Translations under genes and position numbers: made by a program
Shown: piece by piece, positions 1-14,004 of the stretch
How positions within the stretch are numbered: the first letter of the stretch is position 1
Layout of the letters: every line of letters starts with the position of its first letter
Source: Chelatococcus sp. HY11
GTDB lineage: Bacteria > Pseudomonadota > Alphaproteobacteria > Rhizobiales > Beijerinckiaceae
Length of the DNA stretch: 64,000 bases
Assembly: GCF_018398335.1 (NCBI RefSeq)
Contig: NZ_JAHBRX010000002.1
Coordinates: 496,001 to 560,000, forward strand
Reading direction: 5' to 3'
Notes under the pieces: generated by a model
Seen by the model: the letters and a program-made list of their open reading frames with translations, nothing else
Database searches by the model: none
What the model was told of the DNA's origin: nothing

Positions 1-810
1 CCCCACCAGCGCTCCACCCTCGCGGATGGCGAGCTCGGCCGCACCGAATGTCGGAAGCTTCTCCTTGAGGGCAGCCGGCACCACACGTTTGTACTGGGTT
101 CCGAGAAAGGTATCCGGCAGGAGGTAGAGCCAGTTCGCACCGGCCGCTTTGATCTCCGCGATCAATTCCTCGATGCCGTCAGCGATCGGCCGGCCAGCGG
201 AATCGACGCGGAACTGGCGTGGGATGAGCTCGAATTTCATCGACTGCTGGAGAGCCTTCACCTCCTCGACGATCGCGACCGAGTTCTGCTCCGTCTCCGT
301 ATAGAGCACACCGAGCTTCACGATCGGACGGTAGGAGCTCATGGCCCTCAGCTGGATCGCCGTTGGCACCACATGCACAGCGCCGGTCACATTGCGGCCG
401 GGCTCGGCAAGGCTCGGCACGATGCCGGCATTCACGGGAGCCGCGACGAGGGTAAACACGATCGGCGTGTTGGTGATGAAGGCCGCCTTGTCAGCCGCGT
501 CATAGCGCCCGGCCACGCCGAGCGTCACCGGCGTGCCCCAGGTGTAGACGAGATCCGGCTTCAGCTGCCGGATTTCCTCGACGAAATCGCTGAGCTTGGC
601 CCGGCCACGGTCCGCGTCCCGCTCGATGAAGGTTGCTTCGACGCGATTGGCCGCGAGATAATCGTCAAAACCGTCCTCGACCTCGGTGCGGCCACGATAG
701 GTAATGCGATAGATCTTGAACGGCCCGTTACGCGCCTGGGCAAAGGCGCCGCCTGCCGCGAGCGCGGCGGTACCGCCGGCGGCGAACTGCAGAAACGAAC
801 GACGACGCAT
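1..810 (-). CDS. ABC_sub_bind-family periplasmic binding protein (partial, C-terminus off the window)
   Basis: 270 codons are visible, with no stop before the window edge. The N-terminus MRRRSFLQFAAGG is a twin-arginine type signal ending near AFAQA, so the mature protein should be periplasmic. The body (KIYRITYRGRTEVEDGF, then LKPDLVYTWGTPVT, later FTLVAAPVNAGIV) resembles the ABC_sub_bind family of solute-binding proteins (Pfam PF04392), normally part of an ABC importer. The ATG at 810 has a strong ribosome site (GGAGGGGG about 6-10 bases upstream). It starts 22 bases after the stop of the MFS-sensor fusion gene, so the two are probably co-transcribed. No permease or ATPase lies on the visible side; genes left of the window could supply them. 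In this context it may present a ligand to the neighbouring membrane sensors, which is inference. Confidence 0.85.
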   Translation of the reverse strand, partial: MRRRSFLQFAAGGTAALAAGGAFAQARNGPFKIYRITYRGRTEVEDGFDDYLAANRVEATFIERDADRGRAKLSDFVEEIRQLKPDLVYTWGTPVTLGVAGRYDAADKAAFITNTPIVFTLVAAPVNAGIVPSLAEPGRNVTGAVHVVPTAIQLRAMSSYRPIVKLGVLYTETEQNSVAIVEEVKALQQSMKFELIPRQFRVDSAGRPIADGIEELIAEIKAAGANWLYLLPDTFLGTQYKRVVPAALKEKLPTFGAAELAIREGGALVG

Positions 811-832
811 CACACCCCCTCCACCCCGCCTC

Positions 833-2851
833 TTATTCAGCCTGCACGACCGTCGTATGACGCGACGATCGCCAGTAGGCAAATACGGCGACAAACACAG
901 CCGAAGCGAAGGCCATGCCAAGTCCGATGGTCACCACGGCTGAGGTAAATCCATACCGCCCCAAGAGAAAGCCCGCAAATGCGGGTCCAAGCGCATTGCC
1001 CGTGCGCTCGACGAGACGGAATATACCATAAAGTGAGCTCTCACTGATATCGCCCGAGAGCCCACGACCAAACTCGCCGACCAGCGCCGATTGCGGTGCG
1101 ATGCTGATGGCCTGCCCGATTCCAAACAGCCCGAGCATCAACGCGAGAACAAGCGGCTCCTCCGCGCTGATAAGCACACTGAGGCCGGAGAGCCCGGCCA
1201 CGATGCCTCCAAGCGCCACGAAGGGAGCACGCTGATTGAGCCGGCTCGCAAGCGCGGCGAAAGCCGGCACCAGGAGGACCATGGCGATCGGATAGACCAT
1301 CAGGAGCCGTCCGGTTGCCGCCTGCCCTGCCCCCAGCGCCTGCATGTGCAACGGCACGAGGAAGAAGCAGTAGGCCACCAGGATGATCTTGGCGGGCAGC
1401 GCGCATAGAAAAAACAGGCAGGCCAGCGGTGGCGAGGCGAGGATAGGGCCAAAGTCGCGCCAGCGGATGGTCGGCCCTTTGGGCGCGGAGCGGCGCTCAT
1501 CGCCGCGGCCGCCCGGCATGGCGATGAGCGCGAGAATGAGGCTCGCTCCAGCCACCAGGCCGGCGATCACGAAGGTCGCGCGTATCCCAAGACGATCAGC
1601 CAACATGCCGCCGATCGGCGGACCGCAGAGGCCCGCGACGAGGATCGCGCCGATGAACATCGCCATGCCGCTGGCGCGCTGGCGCAGATCCGTATGGTCG
1701 ATGACGAAGCCCTGGGCGCTGACGAACACGGCGGCGAAGCCAAGCCCAGATACCACGCGCGCGAGGGTCAGCATGACAAGGTCGGTTGCCATCGCGGACC
1801 CGATGTAGCCGACAAGGCCGAGGGCCGCGCCTATGATAAGGCTTGTGCGCCGGCCGAGCCGGTCCGTCACACCGCCAAGGATGGGCTGGGACAATGCGAC
1901 GACGGCGAGGAAAGCTACCATCGGCAGACTGGCGACCATATCCGGCGAAAGCCCGGGGATCGGCGCGGCGAGATCCTTGATATAGATCGGCAGGAAAGGT
2001 CGTGTGAGCTCTTCGGCCAGCATGAAGATGAAGAGCGGCGCGCGAACTGCGATGACCGAAACCGGTGCCTCGCTTGAGCCTTCGCCGAGCTTGAACTCCT
2101 TGCGCAGCCCTTCGACGATGGCTTGACGCAGAGCCTCGCCCTGCGCGGCGAGGCGAGCGACGAGGACCGCGTAGCGACCGTGCAGATCGGCGAGACGCCG
2201 GTCTATCCGCGCGGCGAGGCGGCCGAATTCACTGCCGCCGTCGACTGCCGCATGCAGACGCAGATCATCACGGGCGATCGTGTCGAGCCGCGTCTCCACG
2301 CCTTCGATGGCGCCATAGAGCCCGGCGCCGAAGGCGATATGCATTAGTTCGAGCGCGACCAGCGCTGTGACGATCATGATGATGGCAAGATCGATCCAGA
2401 GTTCCGACACCACCTTGCGCGCGAAGGCCGGATCAAGCCCAACCGTCAGCACCGCCGGGCTCGCGGAACCGCTGCGGACCGCGACAGACAGCGCCGATTG
2501 CGCGCGATTAAGGCCTAGAGCCGGTGGGGGCACCTCGGCGGGTATGTCTCCCGCCGCGTGCAAGACCTTCCCGCCTGGAATGCGGAGCAGGACATAGGCG
2601 ATGTCCGGATTGCTCGTGACGGTCCGCTCCAGATAGGGGCGGACGCCCTCCAGGCTGTCGAGCGGAATGCCGAGCTCAAGCGCGCGGCCCATCAGGCTCG
2701 CGACCGAATCGGCAACTGTCGCGGCCTTTGCCTCAAGTTCCGGCAGCAACACCTTTTCCGCACGGCCCGCCGTACGCCAGCTGAAGGCAGCCAAGCCAAG
2801 GACAAGCACGAGAACCAGTACGGCCGATAGCTGTATCCGGACGCTCTTCAC
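833..2851 (-). CDS. Periplasmic sensor domain fused to an MFS transporter body (672 aa)
   Basis: One membrane helix at about residues 7-26 and a second at 152-174 bracket an extracytoplasmic domain of about 125 residues carrying the motif ALELGIPLDSL (57-67). A polar HAMP-like linker (180-260) follows, then a full MFS body (about 265-660). MFS motif A is intact (GGVTDRLGRR, 326-335). Ordinary MFS carriers are about 400-450 residues, so the first 260 residues are an added sensory module. Such a fusion suggests a transporter-receptor (transceptor) or a ligand-gated exporter; the substrate is unknown. The start is GTG at 2851, overlapping the stop of the upstream sensor gene by four bases (GTGA). 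The binding-protein gene follows 22 bases downstream. Gene structure is certain; function is inferred. Confidence 0.85.
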   Translation of the reverse strand: MKSVRIQLSAVLVLVLVLGLAAFSWRTAGRAEKVLLPELEAKAATVADSVASLMGRALELGIPLDSLEGVRPYLERTVTSNPDIAYVLLRIPGGKVLHAAGDIPAEVPPPALGLNRAQSALSVAVRSGSASPAVLTVGLDPAFARKVVSELWIDLAIIMIVTALVALELMHIAFGAGLYGAIEGVETRLDTIARDDLRLHAAVDGGSEFGRLAARIDRRLADLHGRYAVLVARLAAQGEALRQAIVEGLRKEFKLGEGSSEAPVSVIAVRAPLFIFMLAEELTRPFLPIYIKDLAAPIPGLSPDMVASLPMVAFLAVVALSQPILGGVTDRLGRRTSLIIGAALGLVGYIGSAMATDLVMLTLARVVSGLGFAAVFVSAQGFVIDHTDLRQRASGMAMFIGAILVAGLCGPPIGGMLADRLGIRATFVIAGLVAGASLILALIAMPGGRGDERRSAPKGPTIRWRDFGPILASPPLACLFFLCALPAKIILVAYCFFLVPLHMQALGAGQAATGRLLMVYPIAMVLLVPAFAALASRLNQRAPFVALGGIVAGLSGLSVLISAEEPLVLALMLGLFGIGQAISIAPQSALVGEFGRGLSGDISESSLYGIFRLVERTGNALGPAFAGFLLGRYGFTSAVVTIGLGMAFASAVFVAVFAYWRSSRHTTVVQAE

Positions 2852-3507
2852 CGGAGATGCTCCATAGCGGTGTTATCCTGATGGAGTTGCTCCAGAGCAG
2901 CGTCGGCACGGGCAAAGGGATTACCTTCGTTGCGGATTTCCACGACGGCGCGGGCTCGCGCGAGAAGATGCCGCAGCACGAGAAAACAGCCGAAGCTGCC
3001 AGCCAGAACGGCCGCGAGGCCGATCGGCAACGCATCCTGCACCGCCGCGGCGCGAATCGTCGCCAGCCCGCGTGCCACGGCGGCACCATCAAATCGGATG
3101 GCCACATTGCCGACAGGCGCACCAAAATCGTTGACCAGGGGCTGGTCGAACCGGAAGGCCTTGAGATCATCGGTCCGCCCGTCCGGATGCCCGGCACGGG
3201 TGGGGTTGCTGCTGAACAGCACCACCCCGTCGACATCGCTGACATCAATGGACATCGTGAGGGGATCGGCCGTGGCCTGGCGGGAGAGCAGTGCCGGCAG
3301 GGTCATCTGTTCGGGCAGGCGCAGGCCCAAGGCGAGCGCACTGTTGATATCGTTCGCGATATCCTGCGCCACCATCGCCATGCGCGAGCGGATAAGGTCG
3401 CGGTAGGCGGTGCTGACGCCGGAGATTGTCATGAAAGCCGCCAGCGCCATCGCGAGGCCGATGATGATCGCAAACAGCGGCAAGGTCCGAAGTGACAGCC
3501 TGATCAT
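2848..3507 (-). CDS. Stand-alone membrane sensor protein (219 aa)
   Basis: Two hydrophobic segments (about 10-30 and 158-180) flank an extracytoplasmic domain, followed by a short cytoplasmic tail of about 38 residues with no recognisable output domain. The domain has the motif ALALGLRL (57-64) and the stretch NDFGAPVGNVA (126-136), nearly identical to NDFGEPVGYVA in the divergent sensor gene. I therefore read it as a paralogue of the sensor domains in the three neighbouring genes. I chose the ATG at 3507, which sits just before the first helix with a G-rich site upstream, over an in-frame start 105 bases earlier. That longer start would add a charged segment unlike the family. It probably senses a ligand and signals through contact with the MFS fusion encoded by the overlapping next gene. 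No family name can be given. Confidence 0.75.
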   Translation of the reverse strand: MIRLSLRTLPLFAIIIGLAMALAAFMTISGVSTAYRDLIRSRMAMVAQDIANDINSALALGLRLPEQMTLPALLSRQATADPLTMSIDVSDVDGVVLFSSNPTRAGHPDGRTDDLKAFRFDQPLVNDFGAPVGNVAIRFDGAAVARGLATIRAAAVQDALPIGLAAVLAGSFGCFLVLRHLLARARAVVEIRNEGNPFARADAALEQLHQDNTAMEHLR

Positions 3508-3703
3508 CTCGTGCCCCCCGGCACCCCTCATCCACGCCAAACCGGCAACGGCGCACCAGCGTCGAACCGCCCTTCTGAAAGACATAGCATAACCGCAAGA
3601 AATCAACGGCAAATATAGCGCGCGCGGTGACAGTGGCTCACAGTTCCGATACCTTCTGCTTCATCTGCATCTCGCCTGATCCCCCGATTGTGTCGCCTTG
3701 CGC
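3508..3703. promoter_or_regulatory. Divergent control region of the sensor/MFS/phosphatase module
   Basis: This 196-base gap lies between two divergent sensor genes and must hold promoters for both arms. It is richer in A+T around 3595-3620 than the coding DNA either side. I see no convincing consensus -35/-10 pair or strong dyad, so no exact sites are assigned. Confidence 0.45.
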
Positions 3704-4504
3704 ATGTCTCCCGCTGTCCGAACGATTCTGGCCCTCCTCGGCCTCACCGGCGCCGGAATTCTTCTGGCGAGCGCCCTGATATTCGGCGGCCTGGACAGGT
3801 TGCGGCTCCGGGTCGTCGAAGCCAACATCGACTTCGTCCTGACGCAGTTGCGCGATTCCATCGAAGCCAATGTCAGCCTGGGTCTTCCGCTGCAGGATCT
3901 GCGTGTCGTGCAGGATCTCCTGGAGCGGTCGCGAATCGGAAATCCGAGCCTCCTCGCCGTGGAGGTTTTTTCGCCCGCCGGGATTTCCCTGTTCAACACG
4001 GATCGCGGGAGTATTGGCGAAGAGATAACGTCAACCTGGCGAGAGGGTGTACGCCACGCAGGTAACGCTGATCGCTGGCGCGTGGAAGAGTTTGGCAATC
4101 TGATCGTTGGTCAGGCCATCCGCAATGATTTCGGCGAACCAGTGGGCTATGTCGCGGTCACGGTTGCCGGCCCGATGGAACAGTCTCCGGTTGCCTCCAT
4201 CATCGTCGCCAGCGGCTGGCGTCTTGCCATTGTCCTGCCGCTGTGCCTTCTCGGTGTGGGCATCGTCGTCTGGTCAATGCTGCGATGGCGTTCGCGAGAG
4301 ATCATGGACGTGACCGCCCGGCTGGTCATGCAGGCGCCAACGCCCGCAGCAACGCCCCCTGTGGACAAGGATCTCGTGAGCCTCGCCGATCAGGTCGGCG
4401 CTGCCGTCGATACCGCGGTGAATGAACTCGATCAGACCACGGCGACCGTGTTGAAACTCGACGACGACAGCATGAAGGATAGCTTGCGCGATGCCGCGGC
4501 CTGA
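3704..4504 (+). CDS. Stand-alone membrane sensor protein, divergent paralogue (266 aa)
   Basis: The architecture matches the minus-strand 219-residue sensor: a helix at about 7-29, an extracytoplasmic domain of about 140 residues, a second helix at about 172-192 and a cytoplasmic tail of about 75 residues. Shared marks are the motif SLGLPLQDL (58-66) and NDFGEPVGYVA (141-151). The tail ends in an acidic, possibly coiled segment (VNELDQTTATVLKLDDDS) but has no kinase or cyclase domain. The ATG at 3704 was preferred to a TTG two codons upstream. Neither has a clear ribosome site. The 3' end overlaps the next gene by 14 bases, so translation is likely coupled. It is likely the sensor subunit for the MFS-fused partner and the phosphatase downstream; this is inference from order. 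Confidence 0.75.
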   Translation: MSPAVRTILALLGLTGAGILLASALIFGGLDRLRLRVVEANIDFVLTQLRDSIEANVSLGLPLQDLRVVQDLLERSRIGNPSLLAVEVFSPAGISLFNTDRGSIGEEITSTWREGVRHAGNADRWRVEEFGNLIVGQAIRNDFGEPVGYVAVTVAGPMEQSPVASIIVASGWRLAIVLPLCLLGVGIVVWSMLRWRSREIMDVTARLVMQAPTPAATPPVDKDLVSLADQVGAAVDTAVNELDQTTATVLKLDDDSMKDSLRDAAA

Positions 4505-6353
4505 GGCGCGATCCCTGCGCGACCGATTGGCGGCGATCATCATCGCGCTCGCGGTCGCGGCCGCCATCGCGGCAGGTGGCTGGCGCGTGCTCGATGCGGC
4601 TTGGACGGAAAGCGCGCCGGCGCTCGACGAGGCAACGCGGCTTGGGGCTGCCGCCGTCGGGCGGGCGCTGAGCGGCCAGATCGAACACGCGCTATCCCTT
4701 GGCATCCCGCTCGACAAGCTGGTGCGTGTGGAAGACTACCTGAAGACCGTGGTCGCTTCGGCCCCTCAGGTCGACGCCGTCGCGCTTCTCGACGATGCAG
4801 GCCGACCTGTCTTCGCGACGCGTGAGGGCGTGACGGGCCTCACCTTCCCCGTCAACGGCGGCGGACAACGCGCGACGCTCGTTCTATCCATGGAATCGCC
4901 CTTTCTGAGCGCCGCTACGGTTCGGCTGGAGCTCCTTCTTGGCGCCGCCGCCCTCCTTGGCGGCATAATCGCTTTCCTCATCGCCAGCCTCTTTCTCGAG
5001 ATGCATCTCGCGCCGGCGCGAGGCCGACTCGCCTTGGCGCTCGCCCGGGCAGCGCGGGGTGATTTCGCGATCACGATCCCGACCACCGGTCGCGGGCGGA
5101 CGAGCGCTGCTTTCCGGGCCCTCGCCCAACGGATCGAGCCTGTGCATGCGGCAGCGCGACGCTTGGCGGACAGTGTGGCGACCGTGCGAGCCATCGACTT
5201 CGATGGCAGCCTCAGTAAAAGGCTCGAGCCGCTGCTCGCACCAGTCGCCGACACCCGCGGTCTCGCCGATATCGACCCCGGCGACACGCCGCGCTCGACC
5301 GCGCACAGCCTGGCCGCCGTCTGCAGCCGGGCACTCCTTCTCATGTCACTCTACGCTGCAGCCTGGCCGGTGGTCGCCAATTTCGCGATCGATCGCGGCT
5401 CGGACGTGATACCCGCGCCGTTATGGCCCATCCCGCCCCTCTTCGCTGAAACTCTTGCCGCGCTCTTCGCCGCGATGATCTCCCATCACGTGCCGGCGCC
5501 GGTAGCCCGTATGGTCGCGGCCCTGGGCACGGTGCTGACCGGTCTCGCCTTCGCCGCCGTCTTCTGGTGCCGATCCTATGAACTCTTTGTCGTGTTGAGG
5601 ATCTGTGCCGGCTTTGGTCTCGGTCTCGCTGTCACCCCGCTGCTACGCGACCCGCGCCTCGGCGCACATCCACGCGCTCTGGTCGCGCTCATCGGCATTG
5701 CATGCCTGGTGATAGGCCCGCTGTTCGGTGGACTGGTGGCGGAAGCAATCGGCCGAAGGGGCGCTTTTCTTCTGCTCGGCATCGCTTTGCTGGCCAATGC
5801 GCCAATCACGACGGCGATGCCCGCGATCGTGGCGCCGGATGCGGCGCGACGGTTGAAAGCCTCCGGCCTGGCGACGCGTATTCTCATACCCCTCGTGCTC
5901 GCGCCACCCAGCGCGCTGGCGCTCGTGATCATCCCGGCGGGACCGGGATTCGACAATTATGCTGAAGGCGGGGGGCTGATCGCAGCCGCTGGCCTTGCCG
6001 TGACCCTGGCGCCGTCGATGCGGACCGCGTTTGGCGGCCTGCTGGTCGCCATCGCGGGATCGCTGTGGCTGCTACCCACGTTCGGCATGGAAATTCCCGA
6101 AGCCTGGCTGTGGCCCGCGAGCAGCCTGCTGGTCGGGCTTGGTTCTGGCAGCCTCATGAAAGCGCATGCTTCTGCCGTGCTCAGACATGTCGCGCTCGTC
6201 GTCGCCGGGCTCTTGCTCGGCGTCATGGCCGCTGCTCTCGCGGTCATCATGGGCTTCGCCGCGATGAGCCTTATGCTGCCCGTCGGTCTGCTTGTCGTGG
6301 CCGTCACCATGGCCGCCGGGTTGTTCGTGCGCGAAACGGGCTCCGCGCGATGA
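4491..6353 (+). CDS. Periplasmic sensor fused to a degenerate MFS-like membrane body (620 aa)
   Basis: The N-terminal helix (13-31), an extracytoplasmic domain with ALSLGIPLDKL (67-77), a second helix (about 145-170) and a polar linker (175-265) repeat the plan of the minus-strand MFS fusion. The C-terminal part (about 275-615) is a chain of hydrophobic helices that lines up with an MFS body. However, the motif A loop, which reads GGVTDRLGRR in the divergent paralogue, here reads roughly AAMISHHVPAPVAR (328-340), so the conserved Asp and Arg residues are gone. A second-half remnant, GGLVAEAIGRRGAF, survives. The domain may have lost transport and kept a sensing role. The ATG at 4491 has AAGGA about 10 bases upstream. 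The phosphatase gene starts 10 bases after the stop. Confidence 0.75.
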   Translation: MPRPEARSLRDRLAAIIIALAVAAAIAAGGWRVLDAAWTESAPALDEATRLGAAAVGRALSGQIEHALSLGIPLDKLVRVEDYLKTVVASAPQVDAVALLDDAGRPVFATREGVTGLTFPVNGGGQRATLVLSMESPFLSAATVRLELLLGAAALLGGIIAFLIASLFLEMHLAPARGRLALALARAARGDFAITIPTTGRGRTSAAFRALAQRIEPVHAAARRLADSVATVRAIDFDGSLSKRLEPLLAPVADTRGLADIDPGDTPRSTAHSLAAVCSRALLLMSLYAAAWPVVANFAIDRGSDVIPAPLWPIPPLFAETLAALFAAMISHHVPAPVARMVAALGTVLTGLAFAAVFWCRSYELFVVLRICAGFGLGLAVTPLLRDPRLGAHPRALVALIGIACLVIGPLFGGLVAEAIGRRGAFLLLGIALLANAPITTAMPAIVAPDAARRLKASGLATRILIPLVLAPPSALALVIIPAGPGFDNYAEGGGLIAAAGLAVTLAPSMRTAFGGLLVAIAGSLWLLPTFGMEIPEAWLWPASSLLVGLGSGSLMKAHASAVLRHVALVVAGLLLGVMAAALAVIMGFAAMSLMLPVGLLVVAVTMAAGLFVRETGSAR

Positions 6354-6363
6354 GGGGGCGCCG

Positions 6364-8502
6364 ATGTTTCTGAGAACCCGCGTCGCGCTTCTCGTCTCAA
6401 TTGTTCTCGTCATTGCGATCGGCGCGGTGGTCGTGCTCGGCCTGCAGCGCGAAAACCTCGCGGCCCGGCCCTATACAACGATTGCTATCACCGGGCAGGA
6501 CGCATTGTGGCGCGAGATCCTCGCGTCGCAGACGGCCGAGCTCAACGGGACGGTGAGCACGATAGCCGGCGACGAGCGTCTCCGGGCCGCGTTGCTTGGC
6601 GGCGACCTGCCGCGCGTGCGCTCGCTCCTTTTCAATTTCGCAAGCCTCGATCCGACCTCCGAGGACCAGACCGAGCTGCAGATCATAGATCGTCAAGGCC
6701 GGGTGGTGGCGACGAGCTCCCTCGTGCCGGAGCCGCCTCGGCTGCTTGACATCAGCACGGTCGAGGCGGTTCTTGATGGACAAAGGCCGGCAGGTATTCG
6801 CCAGGTGGGATCGGATCAGTTCCGCGTGCTCGCCACATCGGTTCTGACCGTGCCGTCGGGTGATCGCTGGGTCATCATCGCAGCCGCCCCCACCACGCGC
6901 CCGTTGACGCGCTTTTCGACAGCCATGGGCGGCGAGGCCTTCATGCTGTCGACGCGAGGGCGGCTGATCGACGGCACCGATAACGATCTCTGGCGCCGCC
7001 TCGCCCTTGAACTGCCACAGCGCACGGCGACCGTCACCCAGGCGGAACTCAACGACCGTCTGTTCGCAGTCACCGCCGTGCCGCTCACGGACCTCTCGGC
7101 CGGCTTTGCCGGGTTGCTCGTGGTTGTCCAGGATGCAACGGCGAGCCTCAGCGCCGTGCGCATGCTGACACGCCTTGGCCTGGTCATGGCGGCTTGCGTG
7201 CTCCTGCTCACCCTTGGCGGATTCTACCTCTACCTGCGCCGCAGCTTCGCCCCTCTCGAACAGGCTGTCGATGTGCTTGACGCGCTTGGCCGCGGTGACA
7301 CCTCGGTCAGGTTGAGCGGTGGCGGAAATGACGAGATCGGGCGTATCGCCCGGGCGGTGGCGGAGCTGCGCCGCAGCCTTGTCACGCTCGACCAGACCCG
7401 TCGGCAGCGTGAGCTTCAGCGCCGCAGGCAGGAGCGTTTCGTCCGCCGGCAGATGGAAGAGCTGGCGGGCACGCTGGAGCCCGGCGCACGCGAGGAGGTT
7501 CTTGGTGATCTCGGCCGGATTGTCGCCGCGACATCGACCACGGGCAACAATGCCGGCCAGTCCACAGACCCCATCGCGCAGCTCATCCGCCATGACGACC
7601 AGCTCGGGCCCCTGGCAGCGGTGCTGCAGCAGATGTCGGGGCGCGTCGTCGAACAGCATCGGCGACTCTCCGAGCTCGTTGCTCGTCTCCGCGAAGCCCT
7701 GGTGCGCGAGACCCAGCTCGCGACTTTGCAGCAGGAACTCGCGATCGCGCATGACCTGCAACAATCGGTCATCCCCGACGACTTCCCCGACCGACCGCAC
7801 TTTTCAATTTCCGGCTTCATGGAATCGGCCCGCGAAGTCGGTGGCGACTTCTACGACTTCTTCGAGCGCGCCGACGGCAAGCTCGTCTTCGTTATCGCCG
7901 ACGTGTCGGGCAAAGGCATACCCGCCGCCTTCTTCATGGCGATCTCACGGACCTTGCTGAAGGCCATCGCGCTGTTTGAAAACGATCCGGGCGTCTGTGT
8001 CCGGCAGCTCAACGAACTCCTCGCTGCCGACAATGACCAGATGATGTTTGTCACTTTGTTCTTCGGCGTCCTCGACCCTGAGACTGGCCATCTGGACTAT
8101 GTGAATGCCGGACACGGGCCGCCGGTGCGCATCCGCGCAAACGGTGAGATCTCCATGTTGCCCATTACAGACGACATGGCTGTCGCCATCATGGAGTCCG
8201 TTCCGTTCACCACGCGCTCGATAGACCTCTCACCGGGCGACACGCTCGTTCTCTACACGGATGGCGTGACCGAGGCCTTCAACGCGGCCGGTGAGCAGTA
8301 TGGCGAACAGCGCCTTTTGGATATCCTCGACGAGGTGCCCGCTGACGCCGAGGCCAGCGCACTCTCGTCGGCGGTTGCCCTGGATGTGGCGACCTTCGAG
8401 GCCGGCTGCGACCGCTCTGACGACATCACTCTGGTCGTGCTACGATACAAGGGCGAACCAGCCCTGGCGGCGCTGCCTCAGCGAACAGCCCACGCCCTGT
8501 AG
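6364..8502 (+). CDS. HAMP-SpoIIE (PP2C-type) serine phosphatase with periplasmic sensor region (712 aa)
   Basis: A first helix (about 5-27), an extracytoplasmic region of about 240 residues, a second helix (about 271-292), a HAMP domain ending in NDEIGRIARAVAEL, a coiled linker and a C-terminal SpoIIE/PP2C domain are visible. Metal-binding aspartates are present: GGDFYD (Asp495 and Asp498), ADVSGKG (Asp513) and SDDITLVVL (Asp686/687). The enzyme should dephosphorylate phosphoserine on an anti-sigma-factor antagonist (STAS) or a similar protein, in response to an external signal. No STAS protein or anti-sigma kinase lies in the window. The start at 6364 follows a GAGGGGG ribosome site; a start 72 bases earlier would lie inside the preceding gene. 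The gene is the last of the right arm, and its 3' end overlaps the convergent DUF1612 gene by 25 bases. Confidence 0.92.
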   Translation: MFLRTRVALLVSIVLVIAIGAVVVLGLQRENLAARPYTTIAITGQDALWREILASQTAELNGTVSTIAGDERLRAALLGGDLPRVRSLLFNFASLDPTSEDQTELQIIDRQGRVVATSSLVPEPPRLLDISTVEAVLDGQRPAGIRQVGSDQFRVLATSVLTVPSGDRWVIIAAAPTTRPLTRFSTAMGGEAFMLSTRGRLIDGTDNDLWRRLALELPQRTATVTQAELNDRLFAVTAVPLTDLSAGFAGLLVVVQDATASLSAVRMLTRLGLVMAACVLLLTLGGFYLYLRRSFAPLEQAVDVLDALGRGDTSVRLSGGGNDEIGRIARAVAELRRSLVTLDQTRRQRELQRRRQERFVRRQMEELAGTLEPGAREEVLGDLGRIVAATSTTGNNAGQSTDPIAQLIRHDDQLGPLAAVLQQMSGRVVEQHRRLSELVARLREALVRETQLATLQQELAIAHDLQQSVIPDDFPDRPHFSISGFMESAREVGGDFYDFFERADGKLVFVIADVSGKGIPAAFFMAISRTLLKAIALFENDPGVCVRQLNELLAADNDQMMFVTLFFGVLDPETGHLDYVNAGHGPPVRIRANGEISMLPITDDMAVAIMESVPFTTRSIDLSPGDTLVLYTDGVTEAFNAAGEQYGEQRLLDILDEVPADAEASALSSAVALDVATFEAGCDRSDDITLVVLRYKGEPALAALPQRTAHAL

Positions 8503-9596
8503 CGTCCCCGGCCCGTCACCTCCTTCAACGTCGGGCTTAAAGCGCCGATCAGATCGAGCGCGCCTCTCGCCGTCACCTTGAGTTCCTTGGCGACGAGTTG
8601 CGGCGTGACGAGGGGCTTCGCGAGGACCAGATCGACAAGGCCGGGCAAGCGCGAATGAGAGCGCCGATTGGTCAGAAACCGCTCCAGCTGCGTGCGCGCG
8701 AGCATCAGCCGGTCGTGCTCCTGCAGGCCCGCTTCGGCGGCGGCCTTGATCGCGTTGAGCATGGCCACCTTCGGCGGCGCCATCGCATAACCGTGTAACG
8801 TGGAGCCGCCCTTGGCCCGACGCGCTTCGCGAAGGCCAAGACTGACACAGGCGAGATGGTGCTGCGTCTTGCCTCCCGCCCGCAAGACGGCCGCGACCAG
8901 AAGAGGCCCGAGCCAGGACATGGTCTGCAGCGGCGCCAGATCGACCCAGGCCTCCCAGGCATCAAGCGCCGCAAGAACCGGTGGTCGCTCCAGATCGATC
9001 CGCTCCCGCCAGCGCGCGAGCAACTCCTCGTCGTTCCGCTCGGAATCATAGAGCCCTAAGTCCGCCAGACCCGAAAGCCGCCCCGGCGCGGGCGAACGCG
9101 CATCGGCGATGGCCCTGTTGGAACGGGCTAAAAGCGCATCGATATCGGCGAATGCTTGCTCGGCTTCGGCCTCAGCTTCGGCGCCAACAAGTTCCTCCAC
9201 CCGTTGCGAGGACTGGGCGGCGTCATCATCAAGCCACGACGCGTTGCGGCCGCTCAGGGCGTTGAGGCCCGTCGCGCTCAAGGCCCAGCCCGGCGCATGG
9301 CTGGCGATGCCGCGATGGGCCCGCAACACCGCGGAAGCGCGGGTCAGCTCATGGGTCGGCGTGCGAATGTCCATGGCCGCGTCGTTCAGCACGAGATCCT
9401 CGAGATGAACGAGATCGCCGGCGATCCAACGGGCCGCGCAGGCTTCATGGAAGTGGCTGCGGCTGACCCAGGCTTCACGGACAGGACTTGCCCGCAAGCG
9501 CTCGTCGAGACGCGCCACCGCATCCTCCGCCAGGAGAAGCGGACCAACAAGGCTCTCCGACAGAGCCGCCACACTACGCTTGCGAATCATACTCAT
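8478..9596 (-). CDS. DUF1612 / RHE_PE00001-family HTH protein (372 aa)
   Basis: The protein resembles the DUF1612 family with a C-terminal helix-turn-helix (residues near LVLAKPLVTPQLVAKELKVT). This family is common on chromosomes and plasmids of rhizobia; its role is unproven but it is expected to bind DNA. The central part includes an acidic repeat (EAEAEAEQAF) and a long helical region. The start could be the ATG at 9596 or the one two codons later (9590). It is transcribed towards the phosphatase gene and their ends overlap by 25 bases, so it is unlikely to belong to the sensor module. No operon partner is seen. Confidence 0.75.
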   Translation of the reverse strand: MSMIRKRSVAALSESLVGPLLLAEDAVARLDERLRASPVREAWVSRSHFHEACAARWIAGDLVHLEDLVLNDAAMDIRTPTHELTRASAVLRAHRGIASHAPGWALSATGLNALSGRNASWLDDDAAQSSQRVEELVGAEAEAEAEQAFADIDALLARSNRAIADARSPAPGRLSGLADLGLYDSERNDEELLARWRERIDLERPPVLAALDAWEAWVDLAPLQTMSWLGPLLVAAVLRAGGKTQHHLACVSLGLREARRAKGGSTLHGYAMAPPKVAMLNAIKAAAEAGLQEHDRLMLARTQLERFLTNRRSHSRLPGLVDLVLAKPLVTPQLVAKELKVTARGALDLIGALSPTLKEVTGRGRYRAWAVR

Positions 9597-9928
9597 TTCA
9601 CAACATCTTGCACGATCAGCGCCATGACGTCAGCATGGCAACGGCGACCAACGCGCTAGTATTGGAAATGCTCCTCGATCGAATCAGTCTTCGCACATGG
9701 GGGAAGACTTTAGATCGACAGGAGTGAGGCCGGATTGTGTCTATCTTCCCCGCTCACAGCGACACAAGAATCCTCATTACACGCATCTTCTGACGCGCTG
9801 CGGGCCCGTACTTTGTCGTACTGATCAAGCGAGAAGGCCCCGGCCGGAAAACGCGGTGCGCCGCTATGTGGAAGAGGCATCGGCCTTTAACCGATGCCTC
9901 TGTGCATGGAACCGATTGATTGCGCAGG
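9597..9928. other. Intergenic region between the DUF1612 gene and the polyamine-type ABC operon
   Basis: About 330 bases hold no convincing gene. The left part should contain the promoter of the DUF1612 gene. The right part contains the terminator-like hairpin listed separately. Short open frames here lack ribosome sites and recognisable similarity. Confidence 0.6.
9873..9901 (-). terminator. Perfect hairpin, probable terminator of the polyamine-type ABC operon
   Basis: An 11-base-pair perfect stem (AGAGGCATCGG and its complement) encloses a 7-base loop at 9884-9890. It lies 28 bases past the stop of the last permease gene on the minus strand. The T-run after it is short (CTTCC), so termination may be weak. 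Confidence 0.6.
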
Positions 9929-10738
9929 TCAGCGTTGCATGACCCGCCGCAAGCCCGCCATACGGTCGATGACGACCATGGCCACGCCGGAGATGATGAT
10001 GAGCGAACTGGCGAGCGCCGCGCCGACGGCGTCATACTGAAACTTGATATAGGAAAACAACTCCACCGGAAGCGGCGTCCAGCCGGGCGGAGCCAGGAAG
10101 ACCGAAATCGGAAAGTCGTTCCAGGACAGCACGAAGCACAGCACGAAGCTCGAGATAAGGCCGGTCTTGATGACGGGCAGCGTGATCGACATCATCGTGC
10201 GCAGCGGCCCGGCACCGACATTGCGCGCTGCCTCTTCGAGCGACGTGTCAAAGTTCTGCATGCTCGCCGTGAGGATGCGAACCGCGAAAGGCAGCACGTG
10301 AATGGAATGTCCAATGATAAGTGCCGGAATGCCCGCGCCAAAACCGAGCCGCGCGAAGAAGACGTAAAGCGCCAGGCTGAAAATCGTCGTCGGGATCAAC
10401 AGGGGCGACATGATGAGAAGATTGATGAATGCTTTGCCCTTGAAATCGTAGCGTACCATCGCAAGCACGGCCAGAAAGGCCAATGTATTTGCTATGATGG
10501 AGGCGACGAGGCCGAGTGAAAGACTGACGCCCATGGCGCGCACGAAGGTATCCGAAGTCCAGGCGGCCTTGAACCACTCCAGCGTGAAGCCCGACGGTGG
10601 CAGAATGAACTCTCGTGGATTCACCGAGACGAGCAAAGTAATCAGGATGGGGAAGAACAGGAAGGCCATCGCGATATAAGTGAAGACGCGAAGGGCGAGT
10701 GTTCCCATGTCTGGCATACGCATCGACGAGGTCCTCAT
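9929..10738 (-). CDS. ABC transporter permease, PotC-like (269 aa)
   Basis: About six membrane helices and the EAA loop (EEAARNVGAGPLRTMMSITLP, near residues 175-195) mark an inner-membrane permease of the spermidine/putrescine/iron family (PotC type). It should pair with the adjacent PotB-like permease to form the channel. Its start overlaps the stop of that gene by four bases. It is the last gene of the minus-strand operon from the aldehyde dehydrogenase at 17.3 kb and is followed by a hairpin terminator. The substrate is not shown by the sequence; polyamines, amines or small organic acids are all possible in this family. Confidence 0.9.
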   Translation of the reverse strand: MRTSSMRMPDMGTLALRVFTYIAMAFLFFPILITLLVSVNPREFILPPSGFTLEWFKAAWTSDTFVRAMGVSLSLGLVASIIANTLAFLAVLAMVRYDFKGKAFINLLIMSPLLIPTTIFSLALYVFFARLGFGAGIPALIIGHSIHVLPFAVRILTASMQNFDTSLEEAARNVGAGPLRTMMSITLPVIKTGLISSFVLCFVLSWNDFPISVFLAPPGWTPLPVELFSYIKFQYDAVGAALASSLIIISGVAMVVIDRMAGLRRVMQR

Positions 10739-11598
10739 CGTTTGACCTCCAATCGGTTGAGAATGAGCTTGCCGAATACAAAGGCCATGCCCGTGAGAAT
10801 GGTGGCATTGGCCGCGATCATGATCACCGAGAGGCTGGACGCAAAGGGCAGATCGTTATTGAGCAGCGCCTCGCGATAAATCACCAGACCGATCATCTGC
10901 GTATCGTTGGCGCCGACCATCAACGGCACCGCGAAAGCGGAGAAATTCAAGGTGAAGACAATGACGAGGCCGGCATAGAGGCCAGGCAGCGTCAACGGAA
11001 ACGTGATGCTCCAGAATGCTTTCCACCGGTTGGCCCCGACGTTGCGGGCCGCCTCGACGAATGACGGATTAAGGCGCTCGATGGAATCGAGCAGCGACAG
11101 CACGATATAGGGCATCCCGATATAGACGAGCAGGATGATGACGCCCTTCAAATCCCACATGTACCGCACGGGTTCGTCATAGACCCGCAGGGCGATCATC
11201 AGGGAATTCAGGAGGCCGCCGCCACGAAAGATCACGATCCAGCCATAGACGAGCGTGACGAGGCCTATCAACAGCGGCGAAAGCACCATCGTCACGAGCA
11301 CGCTGCGCTGAAGCCCCCGCGTCTGGGCGATATAAAGAGCGACCGGATAGCCTAGCAACACAGAAATCAAAGTCGTGATCACGGCGATACGGATCGAGAA
11401 CCATAAGGTATTGATGAGATACCAGCTGGACCCGAGAAAGCGCGTATAGTTTTCAAAGGTGAACGCCGACACCATGTAGGCGCCGTCGACCGTCTGGTTG
11501 AAGCTGGTGCGGACGACCCAGAGCAACGGCAACACCACGAAGATGGTGAGCGCGATGACCGCGGGAGCAAGAAGAGTGACGGCGCCGCGGGATTTCAT
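10735..11598 (-). CDS. ABC transporter permease, PotB-like (287 aa)
   Basis: This inner-membrane permease has an N-terminal helix (LLAPAVIALTIFVVLPLLWV), about six helices in total and the EAA loop (VEAARNVGANRWKAFWSITFP). It belongs to the PotB/binding-protein-dependent transport family. It overlaps the ATPase gene before it (ATGA at 11595-11598) and the second permease after it, so the subunits are translationally coupled. It works with the 9929-10738 permease, the ATPase at 11595 and the binding protein at 12849. Confidence 0.9.
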   Translation of the reverse strand: MKSRGAVTLLAPAVIALTIFVVLPLLWVVRTSFNQTVDGAYMVSAFTFENYTRFLGSSWYLINTLWFSIRIAVITTLISVLLGYPVALYIAQTRGLQRSVLVTMVLSPLLIGLVTLVYGWIVIFRGGGLLNSLMIALRVYDEPVRYMWDLKGVIILLVYIGMPYIVLSLLDSIERLNPSFVEAARNVGANRWKAFWSITFPLTLPGLYAGLVIVFTLNFSAFAVPLMVGANDTQMIGLVIYREALLNNDLPFASSLSVIMIAANATILTGMAFVFGKLILNRLEVKR

Positions 11599-12695
11599 GA
11601 CGCCCGCCGAGCCTGTGCGTCAATCAGACGAAAATGATGCGGCTCAATGCTCAGCCAAACGTTTTCTCCAATCTCGGCAGCGCGATTGACGTTGTGGGTT
11701 TCGATATACAAGCTCTCGCCGGTTTCGAGCTGAGCCGTATAGCGAATCGTCGGTCCGAAATACTCCACGAAATCGATCCGTGCCTTTAATACGTTGGCGC
11801 CCTCCTGCGGCCCTGCCAGGATGCGAACCCGCTCCGGGCGCAGCAGAACGCGCACCTCAGCACCTTTCGCCAACTGGATGTCACGCCCGACGTGGAGCAC
11901 CAGAGAGGGACCGACGCGGACCGCCGCAATCCCGTCAGCGATCTCCGCGACCCTCCCGTCGAAGAAATTCGTGGTGCCGACGAAGTCGGCGACAAATTCT
12001 GATTGCGGGTCCTCATAGACCTCAAATGGGCGCGCTATGCGAGCGATTTCGCCGCCGCTCATGATGACGACGCGGTCGGACATGGACAGCGCCTCTTCCT
12101 GGTCATGGGTCACATAGAGTGTCGTCATATTCAGGCGCTTCTGGAGCTGCTTGAGCTCACGTCGCATGGCGACACGCAATGCCCTGTCGAGGTTGCTGAG
12201 CGGCTCATCCATGAGAAGCAACTGCGGTTCCAGCGCCAGCGCGCGCGCCAGCGCCACTCTCTGCTGCTGGCCGCCCGAGAGTTGGCGCGGCAGACGGTCC
12301 TCGTAGCCGGACAGGCCGGTGACCGCCAGCGATTCCTCGATCTTGCGCTTGATGAAGGCTTTGTCATGCTTGCGCAGTTTCAAGCCGAAAGCGACATTTT
12401 CCGCGACCGTCATATGAGGCCAAAGCGCGTAATTCTGAAAGACGAAGCCGACCTGGCGCTTCTCCGGCGGCAGATGCGTGACCTCGCGACCGTTGACGCG
12501 AATTGCGCCATCGGATGCCATGATGAAACCCGCGATCATGCGCAAGGTCGTTGTCTTGCCGCAGCCGCTCGGCCCCAGCAGCGAGACAAACTCGCCGTGA
12601 TGAACGTCGAACGACACGTTGTTCACGGCCGCGACCTGACCATAGCGCTTGTAGACGCTCTCAACCTGGATGGCTTTGTCGGCGACACTCTTCAT
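11595..12695 (-). CDS. ABC transporter ATP-binding protein, PotA-like (366 aa)
   Basis: Walker A (GPSGCGKTT), the Q-loop (FQNYALWPH), signature LSGGQQQR, Walker B (LLLMDEP) and the switch histidine (YVTHDQEEA) are all present. The C-terminal 120 residues form a TOBE-type domain, as in PotA and UgpC. It energises the adjacent importer. I chose ATG 12695, preceded by GGAGAG about nine bases upstream, over an open-frame extension of 30 residues that has no family match. The 153-base gap to the binding-protein gene contains two hairpins, which may lower expression of this and later genes relative to the binding protein. Confidence 0.92.
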   Translation of the reverse strand: MKSVADKAIQVESVYKRYGQVAAVNNVSFDVHHGEFVSLLGPSGCGKTTTLRMIAGFIMASDGAIRVNGREVTHLPPEKRQVGFVFQNYALWPHMTVAENVAFGLKLRKHDKAFIKRKIEESLAVTGLSGYEDRLPRQLSGGQQQRVALARALALEPQLLLMDEPLSNLDRALRVAMRRELKQLQKRLNMTTLYVTHDQEEALSMSDRVVIMSGGEIARIARPFEVYEDPQSEFVADFVGTTNFFDGRVAEIADGIAAVRVGPSLVLHVGRDIQLAKGAEVRVLLRPERVRILAGPQEGANVLKARIDFVEYFGPTIRYTAQLETGESLYIETHNVNRAAEIGENVWLSIEPHHFRLIDAQARRAS

Positions 12696-12748
12696 TTTGA
12701 AACGCTCTCCAGGATACATCTGGCATAGATCATGCGCTACGGCCACAG

Positions 12749-12767
12749 ACGGCGGCAAAGCCGCCGT
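12749..12767 (-). other. Hairpin in the leader of the PotA-like gene
   Basis: A perfect 8-base-pair stem (ACGGCGGC with GCCGCCGT) and a 3-base AAA loop lie about 55 bases upstream of the ATPase start. No T-run follows, so it more likely slows polymerase or exonucleases than acts as a full terminator. Confidence 0.5.
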
Positions 12768-12805
12768 GCTGCACGGATATCTCAAGCATAGGGATAAAGC
12801 GGCAT

Positions 12806-12833
12806 AGCCGGGAAGCCCCCATTCCCCCCGGCT
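12806..12833 (-). other. Hairpin just downstream of the binding-protein gene
   Basis: The arms AGCCGGG and CCCGGCT enclose a 14-base C-rich loop, starting 15 bases after the binding-protein stop codon. Such hairpins commonly protect the 3' end of highly expressed binding-protein mRNA in ABC operons. Confidence 0.45.
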
Positions 12834-12848
12834 TTCCGCGTCAGAATC

Positions 12849-13874
12849 TCACTTGCTCGTCATCTTGTTGAGTTCGTTCTGCCACTTCGCCTTGTTGGCC
12901 GTGATCTTCTCCTGATCCGGGAGGAAGAGACGCTTGAACTGCTCGTTCTGAACCAGCAGATCCTTGTAGACGAAATCGGCTGGGATCGTGACGTTCTGCA
13001 CCGTCGGCGCATAGAGATTACGCGTCGCGAAGGCGAGCTGCACCTCAGGGCTCAGGATATAGTTGACGAACGCCTGCGCCTTCTCCGGGTTCTTTGCCGC
13101 TTTGGTGATATTCACGCTGGTGATCAGCGGAAACGTTCCCTCTTCCGGCCGGGCGAACTTGACGTTCTTGGCACCCTTTTCAAGAAGCTCCTTCATGCGC
13201 CCTGTCGCCAGCATGCCGAGCCACGCGTCTTCGGTCTGGAAAAGCGAGACCATCTGGCTTTCCACATCGAGCGAACCGATCAGATTTCCGCTCTTCACAA
13301 GTGCGGCCATCTTGTCGAGCCCAGGCTGGATATTGTCGATGCTGCCGCCGTTCTTCTGGGCCTGCAGCACTGTCAGGCTGAGCGTCGGAATGTGCTCAAA
13401 GCCATAGATGACAACATGGTTCTTGTAGTCTGGCTTCCAGAGCTCGTCCCAGGATGTCGGCGCCGCCTTCACCTTGTCCGTGTTGTAGGCGAGCACGTAG
13501 TCGCCGACATTTGCGAAAACGGTATAGGGCGAATATATTGCGTTGCTGTATAGATTGGCCATGTTCGGGATCTTGCTCTTATCGAGCTCCATCCACAGGC
13601 CTTCCTTCTCACCGGCAATCGAGTTCAACAGCGTGTTTGTCGCGACATCGACCTGACCAAGGCGCGACTTGACGAGATGGTCGGGGCTTGCGCCCACCAC
13701 CCATTCGATCTTGCACTTCTCGGCTTCCTCGAAGGCCTTGGCAACAGATTCATAGGTCTTCTGATAGCTGCCGCCCCAGGTCGTGACGCGCAGGGTGCAA
13801 TCCTGAGCGAAGGCCGGCGATGCGAATACACCAAGAGCTCCCGCAAGGAGCAACGCTGACATTGATTTCTTCAT
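12849..13874 (-). CDS. ABC transporter substrate-binding protein, PotD-like (341 aa)
   Basis: A Sec signal peptide (MKKSMSALLLAGALGVFASPAFA) precedes a mature protein starting QDCTLRVTTWGGSYQKTY, typical of family 1/PotD-type extracellular binding proteins. It should deliver a ligand in the periplasm to the PotB/PotC/PotA-like importer encoded just downstream. I chose ATG 13874 because AAGGGGA lies directly upstream and the signal peptide begins there. The upstream 28-codon extension would bury the signal. Its position behind an aldehyde dehydrogenase and a ThDP enzyme suggests that the imported compound, or a product of it, passes through an aldehyde. Confidence 0.92.
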   Translation of the reverse strand: MKKSMSALLLAGALGVFASPAFAQDCTLRVTTWGGSYQKTYESVAKAFEEAEKCKIEWVVGASPDHLVKSRLGQVDVATNTLLNSIAGEKEGLWMELDKSKIPNMANLYSNAIYSPYTVFANVGDYVLAYNTDKVKAAPTSWDELWKPDYKNHVVIYGFEHIPTLSLTVLQAQKNGGSIDNIQPGLDKMAALVKSGNLIGSLDVESQMVSLFQTEDAWLGMLATGRMKELLEKGAKNVKFARPEEGTFPLITSVNITKAAKNPEKAQAFVNYILSPEVQLAFATRNLYAPTVQNVTIPADFVYKDLLVQNEQFKRLFLPDQEKITANKAKWQNELNKMTSK

Positions 13875-14001: not shown

Positions 14002-14004
14002 CGA

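Follow-up and report, generated by a model that had tools for sequence, protein, structure and literature searches.

The closest described systems couple either a phosphatase switch to an output enzyme or a transporter-like protein to a signalling enzyme. SiaABCD of Pseudomonas comprises the PP2C phosphatase SiaA, the kinase SiaB, the STAS-like protein SiaC, and the diguanylate cyclase SiaD, in the portions of the two reports available to us (PMC7647112, PMC8457831). UhpC of the UhpABC system is an MFS receptor that, according to the accessible part of its description, detects a ligand outside the cell and in response stimulates the membrane-bound signalling kinase UhpB (PMC7607045). The CbrA-type and S-component/5TMR transceptors also join a transporter-like membrane domain to signalling, and one published case places SpoIIE on a 5TMR fold; in the excerpts available, they use other transporter folds, SLC5 and the ECF S-component (PMC8871633, PMC11109136), and the term MFS has zero occurrences in the main text of the S-component paper. 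RbaVWY of Rhodobacter capsulatus is a STAS/HATPase/PP2C switch for which no sigma factor had been identified, as stated in the accessible part of its report (PMC3999984). These few transporter-fold receptors (UhpC, CbrA, and the S-component family) are the bacterial ones described in the literature searched.

The locus considered here lies at the left end of a 64,000-nucleotide stretch of DNA from Chelatococcus sp. HY11 (hereafter, the window), and positions are counted from its first nucleotide. It resembles SiaABCD, as far as the available portions of those reports go, in that there a STAS-like protein controls a nucleotide cyclase and has its phosphorylation set by a kinase and a PP2C-type phosphatase (PMC7647112, PMC8457831). 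However, the kinase domain here shares a polypeptide with a class III cyclase, with no diguanylate cyclase pairing, and a binding-protein/MFS/Cache input is present; the SiaA equivalog model NF038263 gave the locus phosphatase 53 bits against a cut-off of 700. Unlike in UhpABC, the MFS body is fused to a Cache-HAMP-like sensor and is accompanied by a binding protein and by a second sensor that stands alone as its partner, and the enzyme linked to it is SpoIIE, a cyclase, a Ser/Thr kinase, or a hybrid kinase; no histidine kinase adjoining an MFS protein was found among the scanned Chelatococcus block proteins. RbaVWY is likewise an alphaproteobacterial STAS/HATPase/PP2C switch, but RbaY has a receiver domain and no membrane sensor, and the accessible text on RbaVWY does not mention MFS proteins, a Cache pair, or a binding protein (PMC3999984). 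No published description of the sensor/MFS-fusion/binding-protein architecture was found in the titles and abstract openings of the open PMC literature, and the block appears to be a bacterial receptor of a kind not yet described.

Organization of the locus

The gene content, order, conservation, folds, catalytic residues, enzyme exchange, and fusions reported below were established by computation. Two divergent arms are separated by an intergenic region (3508..3703), a promoter scan of which gave no match to a sigma-70-type promoter. Arm 1, on the minus strand, comprises the stand-alone membrane sensor 1 (219 aa, 2848..3507), MFS fusion 1 (833..2851), ordered as TM, sensor, TM/HAMP-like segment, and MFS body, and an ABC_sub_bind (PF04392) periplasmic binding protein with a twin-arginine-like signal (1..810). 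The last of these is truncated by the window edge; the whole gene occupies L003:15803-16810, with the longest ORF extending to 16921, and matches PF04392 at E 6.4e-28. Arm 2, on the plus strand, comprises the stand-alone membrane sensor 2 (266 aa, 3704..4504), MFS fusion 2 (4491..6353), ordered as TM, Cache-like domain, TM, HAMP-like segment, and MFS body, and a sensor-HAMP-SpoIIE phosphatase of the PP2C type (6364..8502; Pfam SpoIIE E 2.4e-51, HAMP E 2.7e-9). By ORF coordinates, the sensor 1 and MFS1 genes overlap by 4 bases, and those of sensor 2 and MFS2 by 14 bases.

ORFs and Pfam matches thus agree with an earlier note on this DNA, which had described two divergent arms, each with a stand-alone sensor and an overlapping sensor::MFS fusion, the second arm running into a HAMP-SpoIIE phosphatase. 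Its further statement that arm 1 ends in the binding protein was correct insofar as the arm reaches that gene, but the arm does not stop there: overlapping genes for a GNAT-like protein and then an alanine racemase continue it. The block is more than a chance arrangement, as SpoIIE (PF07228) matches once in the entire 6.95 Mb genome, and the gene order is kept in all four Chelatococcus genomes and, at protein identities of 31-72%, in two further families of the same order.

Conservation and exchange of output enzymes

The census comprised 80 named loci carrying a relative of the MFS fusion, and a full-flank subset, the 54 loci for which each side extended 9 kb or more. A partner sensor is beside or fused to MFS1 in 79/80 loci, and an ABC_sub_bind gene is directly downstream in 73/80 and somewhere in the locus in 77/80; the co-localization in other genomes on which the earlier note had staked its reading was therefore found. 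A SpoIIE with its catalytic domain is present in 33/54 full-flank loci, 30 of which also have the HATPase and 27 the STAS protein, whereas the 21 without a catalytic SpoIIE contain no HATPase and a single STAS protein; the profiles were built iteratively from system members, and a distant HATPase or STAS may escape them. The SpoIIE profile alone mislabelled three proteins, which were corrected by a check for the catalytic part. Seventeen of the 23 known two-armed genomes were searched: the best SpoIIE match of the genome was the locus copy in all 17, and in 12 it was the only one.

Among the 80 named loci, the linked output is SpoIIE in 43, a Ser/Thr kinase carrying dCache-HAMP in nine, and a hybrid histidine kinase in ten, and no two of the three were found in one locus. 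The hybrid kinase is orthologous across its ten named loci, which are of betaproteobacterial type. A dCache-HAMP-cyclase occupies the SpoIIE position in two two-armed loci (L090 and L091), where the catalytic PP2C part is unmatched and neither HATPase nor STAS was found. Sixteen of the 54 full-flank loci have neither SpoIIE nor Ser/Thr kinase within 10 kb; one of these (L170) has a phosphatase-less output protein, six have the hybrid kinase, and nine are without a nameable linked output, although among the nine are two from Azospirillum (L175 and L180) with a different, 7TM hybrid kinase ~4-5 kb downstream. Several candidates were removed: L170 as a SpoIIE locus (44 became 43) for having no PP2C catalytic match, L178 as a Ser/Thr-kinase locus for a match that was generic, and cyclase matches in L129, L130, and L184 for scoring under 32 bits. 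The cyclase of the HATPase operon is not a universal output, and was ruled out as such, because it is found in only 9/80 named loci.

Fusions also vary. Sensor and sensor::MFS are joined in a single frame in L143, L158, L165, L186, L106, and L108, and sensor-SpoIIE fusions occur in L103, L104, and L158. MFS2 is not essential, because 16 Xanthobacteraceae-type loci have an arm 2 that lacks the MFS body; in 14 of these, SpoIIE is followed downstream by a separate MFS gene, which was considered as a split MFS2 and discounted at 21-58 bits. When unannotated frames were compared all against all, high-GC shadow frames swamped the result, and frames from L150, L164, L171, and L175, which matched no Pfam family, are probably of this kind.

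Sensors, MFS bodies, and binding protein

The two stand-alone sensors are related (tblastn of sensor 2 against sensor 1, E 2.7e-6). Neither has a Pfam Cache match, and sensor 1 matches no Pfam family at all, but the AlphaFold2 model of sensor 2 (pLDDT 89.9) contains a single Cache/PDC fold between two TM helices, as expected of a Cache/PDC sensor; the best Foldseek matches were WalK, DcuS, DctB, and CitA. Sensor 1 is Cache-like by its homology to sensor 2. Both MFS bodies belong to the MFS, MFS1 by PF07690 (MFS_1, E 1.5e-37) and MFS2 by its fold: fusion 2 has no Pfam match up to E 0.1, its profile matches VMAT2 at E 1.8e-7, and its AlphaFold2 model found VMAT2 and NorA in Foldseek (E 7e-7 to 2e-6, TM up to 0.71 by target). 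Stand-alone and MFS-fused sensors split in the tree with support of 100/99; the arm-2 stand-alone group has only 83/89, and rows S1, M1, and M2 of L090 lie outside their own groups. The tree suggests that an old sensor/sensor::MFS pair was duplicated as a whole, which would be the reason for the mirror-image layout.

The binding protein is flanked by the GNAT-like gene and MFS fusion 1, and no ABC permease or ATPase gene adjoins it; an ordinary ABC importer, the case that the earlier note had named as fatal to its proposal, is excluded on that ground. The nearest permease-like ORFs, recognized by eye at L003:2765-4542, lie at a distance of over 9 kb, next to an SBP_bac_5 gene distinct from it. 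Structural relatives from the ABC_sub_bind family are 3LKV, 3LFT, and 6HNI (phmmer E 1.4e-15 to 1.8e-18). These have an Asp preceding a conserved Pro, whereas only 17/121 rows have an Asp there, and Arg39, Glu259, and Arg274 are conserved instead, unlike the pattern in 3LKV, 3LFT, and 6HNI. Because the site Asp is mostly absent and these three residues are conserved in its place, the ligand probably differs from theirs; an aromatic amino acid, which the structural relatives had brought up, is unsupported, as the site aspartate is not conserved.

The foremost alternative to a receptor is a transport operon, in which the binding protein feeds MFS1 as a secondary transporter and the sensors and phosphatase merely regulate its use. 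MFS1 could simply be a transporter: besides its MFS_1 match, motif-A-like residues are kept, and charged E281 and R284 occur in at least 90% of 21 rows. The binding protein accompanies it in 77/80 loci, and metabolic genes travel along (GNAT-like, alanine racemase, and an alpha/beta hydrolase, the last in 18 named loci). However, the MFS body is covalently tied to a sensor whose partner is itself conserved (79/80), and the conserved adjoining enzymes are signalling enzymes, swapped among lineages. We regard an operon that serves transport first as unlikely, even as the best of the alternatives, although transport and sensing may occur together.

Partner-switch proteins

The earlier note had proposed a search left of the window for STAS and HATPase_c anti-sigma genes; both are present, with motifs intact. 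They lie 2.3-4.4 kb outside the window, and their products are a STAS protein and a fusion of an anti-sigma-type HATPase with a class III cyclase. The STAS gene (PF01740 E 2.2e-14) is 2.3 kb away, and the HATPase_c_2 domain matches PF13581 at E 7.5e-24. Scanning ten left-flank proteins gave no GGDEF match at E 0.01; the class III cyclase is there instead. Using matches covering >80% of the model, SpoIIE D495, D498, D513, D633, D686, and D687 are kept in 60/60 rows, STAS Ser69 in 54/54, and HATPase E484, N488, D519, G544, G545, and G547 in 55/55. We take Ser69 to be the phosphosite, after the RsbV/SpoIIAA family, and the HATPase residues make up the N, G1, and G2 boxes. Cyclase Asp241, Asp283, and Arg354 are kept in 13/13 rows, and Asn350 nearly so. 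The locus thus has the parts of a partner-switching module of the RsbU/V/W or SpoIIE/AA/AB kind, namely a PP2C/SpoIIE phosphatase with metal-binding aspartates, a STAS protein with its serine, and an HATPase_c_2 kinase, but it has no linked sigma factor of the Sigma70_r2 family (none within 20 kb), in which it is like some known switches.

Sigma factors are frequent targets of partner switches, and the HATPase domain is RsbW/SpoIIAB-like (RsbW 6m36 E 8.7e-10; SpoIIAB chains 7e-7 to 2e-6). It could therefore act, Bacillus-style, as an anti-sigma factor whose sigma factor is encoded elsewhere, with the cyclase as an accessory. Against this, PF04542 (Sigma70_r2), a profile for sigma-70-type factors and not for sigma-54, has no match within 20 kb of the locus in 8/8 genomes, although two genomes from a single genus have one at ~23 kb, and the cyclase in the SpoIIE position of L090 and L091 points to cyclic nucleotides. 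According to the accessible part of its report, alphaproteobacterial RbaVW also yielded no sigma factor despite a search (PMC3999984). A sigma-factor target is, in our judgement, improbable, and slightly more so than a transport operon. That the locus is an accidental juxtaposition of a transport/alanine-racemase operon with an unrelated stress partner switch is very improbable: PrkA-DUF444-SpoVR and alanine racemase do adjoin the block in some lineages only, but the order is shared at 31-72% identity with two other families, HATPase/STAS presence tracks that of SpoIIE, and sensor-phosphatase fusions exist.

Proposed mechanism

The interpretation as a signalling module is supported, and we consider it likely that the locus encodes a modular binding-protein/MFS/Cache membrane receptor feeding a phospho-partner switch. 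In what follows, every contact, the way in which control runs, the part played by a ligand, and control of the cyclase are inferred. Arm 1 (sensor 1, sensor::MFS1, the Tat-like exported binding protein, the GNAT-like enzyme, and alanine racemase) would be the ligand-reading side, the binding protein passing a small molecule on to the paired Cache domains and to the body of MFS1. The stand-alone Cache proteins would each associate 1:1 with the Cache domain carried by their own MFS fusion, and binding or transport by the MFS would alter the sensor pair. Arm 2 (sensor 2, sensor::MFS2, and SpoIIE) would relay the signal to the sensor-HAMP-SpoIIE phosphatase, which would in this way be set by a ligand bound by the binding protein or the MFS. 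The phosphatase would dephosphorylate the STAS protein of the locus, and unphosphorylated STAS would bind the HATPase domain and shift the state of the fused nucleotide cyclase, which the partner switch may thus control. Other lineages have these input genes next to a Cache-HAMP cyclase in the SpoIIE position, a dCache-HAMP Ser/Thr kinase, or a hybrid histidine kinase.

We judge the case evenly balanced for a new receptor class, defined by an obligate Cache pair, one member with an MFS body, a dedicated binding protein, and interchangeable outputs (PP2C switch, membrane nucleotide cyclase, Ser/Thr kinase, or hybrid histidine kinase). A cassette found near four kinds of signalling enzyme would exemplify both transport-signalling coupling and natural output exchange; it is a concrete candidate input for the SpoIIE/STAS switches of Alphaproteobacteria, and points to another way, in addition to that of SiaABCD, in which a partner switch may control a nucleotide cyclase. 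If the proposal is true, MFS-based transceptors with a binding protein would be a widespread bacterial signalling principle, the Chelatococcus chain running from nutrient through MFS/Cache, PP2C, and STAS to nucleotide cyclase, and relatives placing a cyclase directly at the phosphatase position. PrkA-DUF444-SpoVR, for which the accessible text of the literature searched gave no tie of PrkA/SpoVR to a partner switch, lies within the Chelatococcus gene run that carries the HATPase-cyclase and STAS genes.

Gene content of the block and its left flank

The two arms diverge from a 196-base intergenic region (3508-3703) in the window (G000:C2:496001-560000 of the 6.95 Mb genome). Arm 1, on the minus strand, comprises sensor 1 (2848-3507), MFS fusion 1 (MFS1; 833-2851), which overlaps it by 4 bases, and the ABC_sub_bind gene, which starts at 810 and continues past the window edge; arm 2, on the plus strand, comprises sensor 2 (3704-4504), MFS fusion 2 (MFS2; 4491-6353, a 14-base overlap), and the HAMP-SpoIIE gene (6364-8502). 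The next gene (8478-9596, minus strand) encodes an RHE_PE00001 family member with DUF1612 and HTH_13; of the loci compared by tblastn, only those of the four Chelatococcus genomes have it beside the block. Beyond it, ORFs at 9929-12785 (minus strand) resemble by eye an ordinary spermidine/putrescine-type ABC transporter with two permeases and one ATPase.

In L003, the stretch of the same genome reaching left of the window (window coordinate plus 16000), the binding protein gene is whole (15803-16810) and shares the minus strand with genes for a GNAT-like protein (15063-15803) and alanine racemase (13900-15066). The GNAT-like protein had no Pfam match at E 0.01, and a profile of 33 relatives matched structures of GNAT acetyltransferases, the best at E 1.8e-5. 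Farther left, on the plus strand, are genes for PrkA kinase (6816-8759), DUF444 (8780-10090), SpoVR (10087-11640), a protein with class III nucleotide cyclase and HATPase_c_2 domains (ORF 11606-13360), and a STAS protein (ORF 13326-13709) whose gene stops 2.3 kb short of the window. The earlier note had pointed to this flank as the place for STAS and anti-sigma-type HATPase genes, and both are present; its worry that the binding protein might belong to an ordinary ABC importer is not borne out, as no ABC permease adjoins it.

Conservation of the block

The PF07228 (SpoIIE) match is the only one in the whole genome, the best HATPase_c_2 match (of 14 in the search, two over the cut-off) sits 10.5 kb from it, and the gene order is kept in relatives; the grouping is thus not chance. 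By tblastn with each protein, three other Chelatococcus genomes share this order, their main matches being 72-99% identical, and so do G039 (42-72%) and G052 (31-53%); in G052 the HATPase stands alone, the cyclase being absent from the match, and alanine racemase gave no match. Fusion 2 was matched in 6 of 60 genomes, and at the level of the order and the class the sensor 1 profile picked out 26/397 and 22/385 genomes, respectively, each count including the genome itself. Neighborhood maps gave several one-armed loci and 23 two-armed loci, 21 with SpoIIE and two (L090 and L091) with a cyclase in its place. The locus SpoIIE was the best SpoIIE match of its genome in all 17 two-armed genomes searched (of 23), and the sole match in 12 of these.

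Searching named genomes with an alignment of 21 MFS1 fusions gave 224 relatives; the top 80 were retained, and local profiles were used to map them. These named loci are counted alone, although some share genomes with the other mapped loci, and their class labels are our reading of record titles. A sensor lies directly upstream of MFS1, or is fused to it, in 79/80, the exception (L166) being at a contig end. ABC_sub_bind follows MFS1 directly in 73/80 and occurs anywhere in the locus in 77/80, two of the three loci without it (L121 and L179) being at contig ends. An MFS2 body is present in 19/80. SpoIIE was assigned by profile mapping to 43/80, 44 before L170 was dropped for having no PP2C match with a catalytic-part profile; the gene is cut by the contig end in L121 and lies in two frames in L148. 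Among the 54 loci flanked by 9 kb or more on each side (full-flank loci), HATPase and STAS accompany 30 and 27, respectively, of the 33 with SpoIIE, and 0 and 1 of the 21 without, in counts that distant HATPase or STAS proteins could escape because the profiles were built from system members.

The partner switch and its putative targets

Counting only matches covering over 80% of the model, the SpoIIE aspartates are kept in 60/60 rows, STAS Ser69 in 54/54, and HATPase E484, N488, D519, G544, G545, and G547 in 55/55. On the usual assignment of roles to these positions, all 13 aligned cyclases keep both metal-binding Asp and the Arg, and almost all keep the Asn; in our reading of the alignment the two base-selecting positions differ from the usual Lys/Asp, so sequence does not fix the substrate. 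Residues 1-230 of the cyclase-HATPase (L003:11606-12300) form a conserved domain without a Pfam match, by eye a candidate relative of nucleotide-sensing SLOG-like domains.

Some genomes encode cyclase and HATPase as a fusion; others (L110, L112, L115, and L116) have them as neighboring genes. Because a HATPase-linked cyclase occurs in only 9/80 named loci, the switch must act on other targets elsewhere. In 8/8 genomes, PF04542 gave no match closer than 20 kb to the locus; two genomes of one genus have one ~23 kb away.

PrkA-DUF444-SpoVR runs directly into cyclase-HATPase and STAS (L003:6816-13709) in 4/4 Chelatococcus genomes, and in none outside Chelatococcus among the loci mapped; a link between a partner switch and PrkA is possible. 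In Rhizobium etli, prkA induction occurs in stationary phase and requires (p)ppGpp and RpoN1, and a prkA mutant showed no clear stress phenotype (PMC3188799).

Exchange of the output enzyme

The SpoIIE position in L090 (4760-6946) and L091 (12973-15159) is occupied by dCache-HAMP followed by a class III Guanylate_cyc domain (Pfam, E 3e-19 to 4e-19), with no PP2C, and neither HATPase nor STAS was found in their neighborhood maps. In Beta- and Gammaproteobacteria, the triad of stand-alone sensor, MFS fusion, and binding protein is divergent to a Pkinase, dCache, and HAMP protein (three Pfam-tested). A Ser/Thr kinase profile matched 10/80 named loci, and nine were retained, including L137 (a contig fragment) and L147 (the sensor half alone); L178 was dropped as a generic match. 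The L147 record bears the title Bordetella parapertussis, the sole source of that name; it is a metagenome bin, and the name looks doubtful given its scan neighbors. Ten loci of Rubrivivax-like and other betaproteobacterial type carry an orthologous PAS hybrid histidine kinase with an Hpt domain (three Pfam-tested), upstream of the triad on the opposite strand and at the same position, and split over two frames in L150. Each of the 80 named loci has at most one of SpoIIE, Ser/Thr kinase, and PAS hybrid kinase.

Sixteen full-flank loci have neither SpoIIE nor Ser/Thr kinase: one is L170, six carry the hybrid kinase, and in the remaining nine we found no output that could be tied to the triad. 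Some 4-5 kb downstream, two of the nine (Azospirillum L175 and L180) encode another kind of hybrid kinase that includes a 7TM domain and scores 178-192 bits against the profile. A HAMP-MCP chemoreceptor at L183:1734-3560, ~5.6 kb from a triad with no other output in view, may be a further output or chance. At L065:12358-14000, a one-armed triad and GNAT gene, with no SpoIIE in view, lie beside a non-ribosomal peptide synthetase-like gene (Condensation domain).

Every part of the cassette is of a known kind. The closest known systems in principle, as far as the available parts of the sources go, are UhpC-UhpB, CbrA, S-component receptors, SiaABCD, and RbaVWY; an open-access literature search found no description of the combined cassette. 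We consider it quite probable that the cassette is a modular binding-protein/MFS/Cache receptor feeding a partner switch, a reading that gained somewhat from the finding that L090 and L091 have a cyclase where SpoIIE would be. The chances that experiments would show a new receptor class seem to us even.

Origin and roles of the arms

In a midpoint-rooted maximum-likelihood tree (86 sensor domains, 28 loci), all stand-alone sensors separate from all MFS-fused ones (support 100/99). One group holds the arm-2 stand-alone sensors (83/89, not starred), and another holds 14/15 arm-2 fused sensors (99/94). L090 rows S1, M1, and M2 are exceptions, falling outside their groups; the tree carries a long-branch warning for L065 and L090_M2. 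On the simplest reading, an old sensor/sensor::MFS pair would have been duplicated as a unit, giving the mirror image.

Sensor and sensor::MFS form one polypeptide in four named loci (L143, L158, L165, and L186), and also in L106 and L108. In L103, L104, and L158, the SpoIIE protein carries a directly fused sensor, and in 16 Xanthobacteraceae-type loci arm 2 consists of two sensors and SpoIIE without an MFS body; these arrangements suggest that arm 2 connects to the output enzyme and that arm 1 reads the ligand.

The AlphaFold2 model of sensor 2 (48 aligned sensors, pLDDT 89.9) has as its nearest solved structures the extracytoplasmic Cache/PAS domains of WalK, DcuS, DctB, and CitA. That of fusion 2 (27 aligned sequences, pLDDT 86.1) is laid out as a TM helix, Cache-like domain, TM helix, HAMP-like region, and a many-helix body that most resembles VMAT2 and NorA (TM up to 0.71 by target).

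Ligand of the binding protein

Phe, Trp, or Tyr is the ligand of those binding-protein relatives whose structures are solved (PMC6816091). Their Asp-Pro is here mostly Ala-Pro or Ser-Pro (Ala 65, Ser 16, and Asp 17 of 121 rows), and Arg39, His146, Glu259, and Arg274 are conserved instead; a different ligand is therefore likely. The GNAT-like gene occurs in 44/53 alphaproteobacterial named loci; where those mostly carry it, Beta- and Gammaproteobacteria have an alpha/beta hydrolase with the triad, found by phmmer in 18 named loci of the Ser/Thr-kinase and hybrid-kinase kinds (including L129:5297-6424 and L134:5175-6359; two Pfam-tested). Either enzyme may act on the ligand. Ahead of the binding-protein domain, 75/120 proteins have a twin-arginine-like motif, versus 18 after one shuffle.
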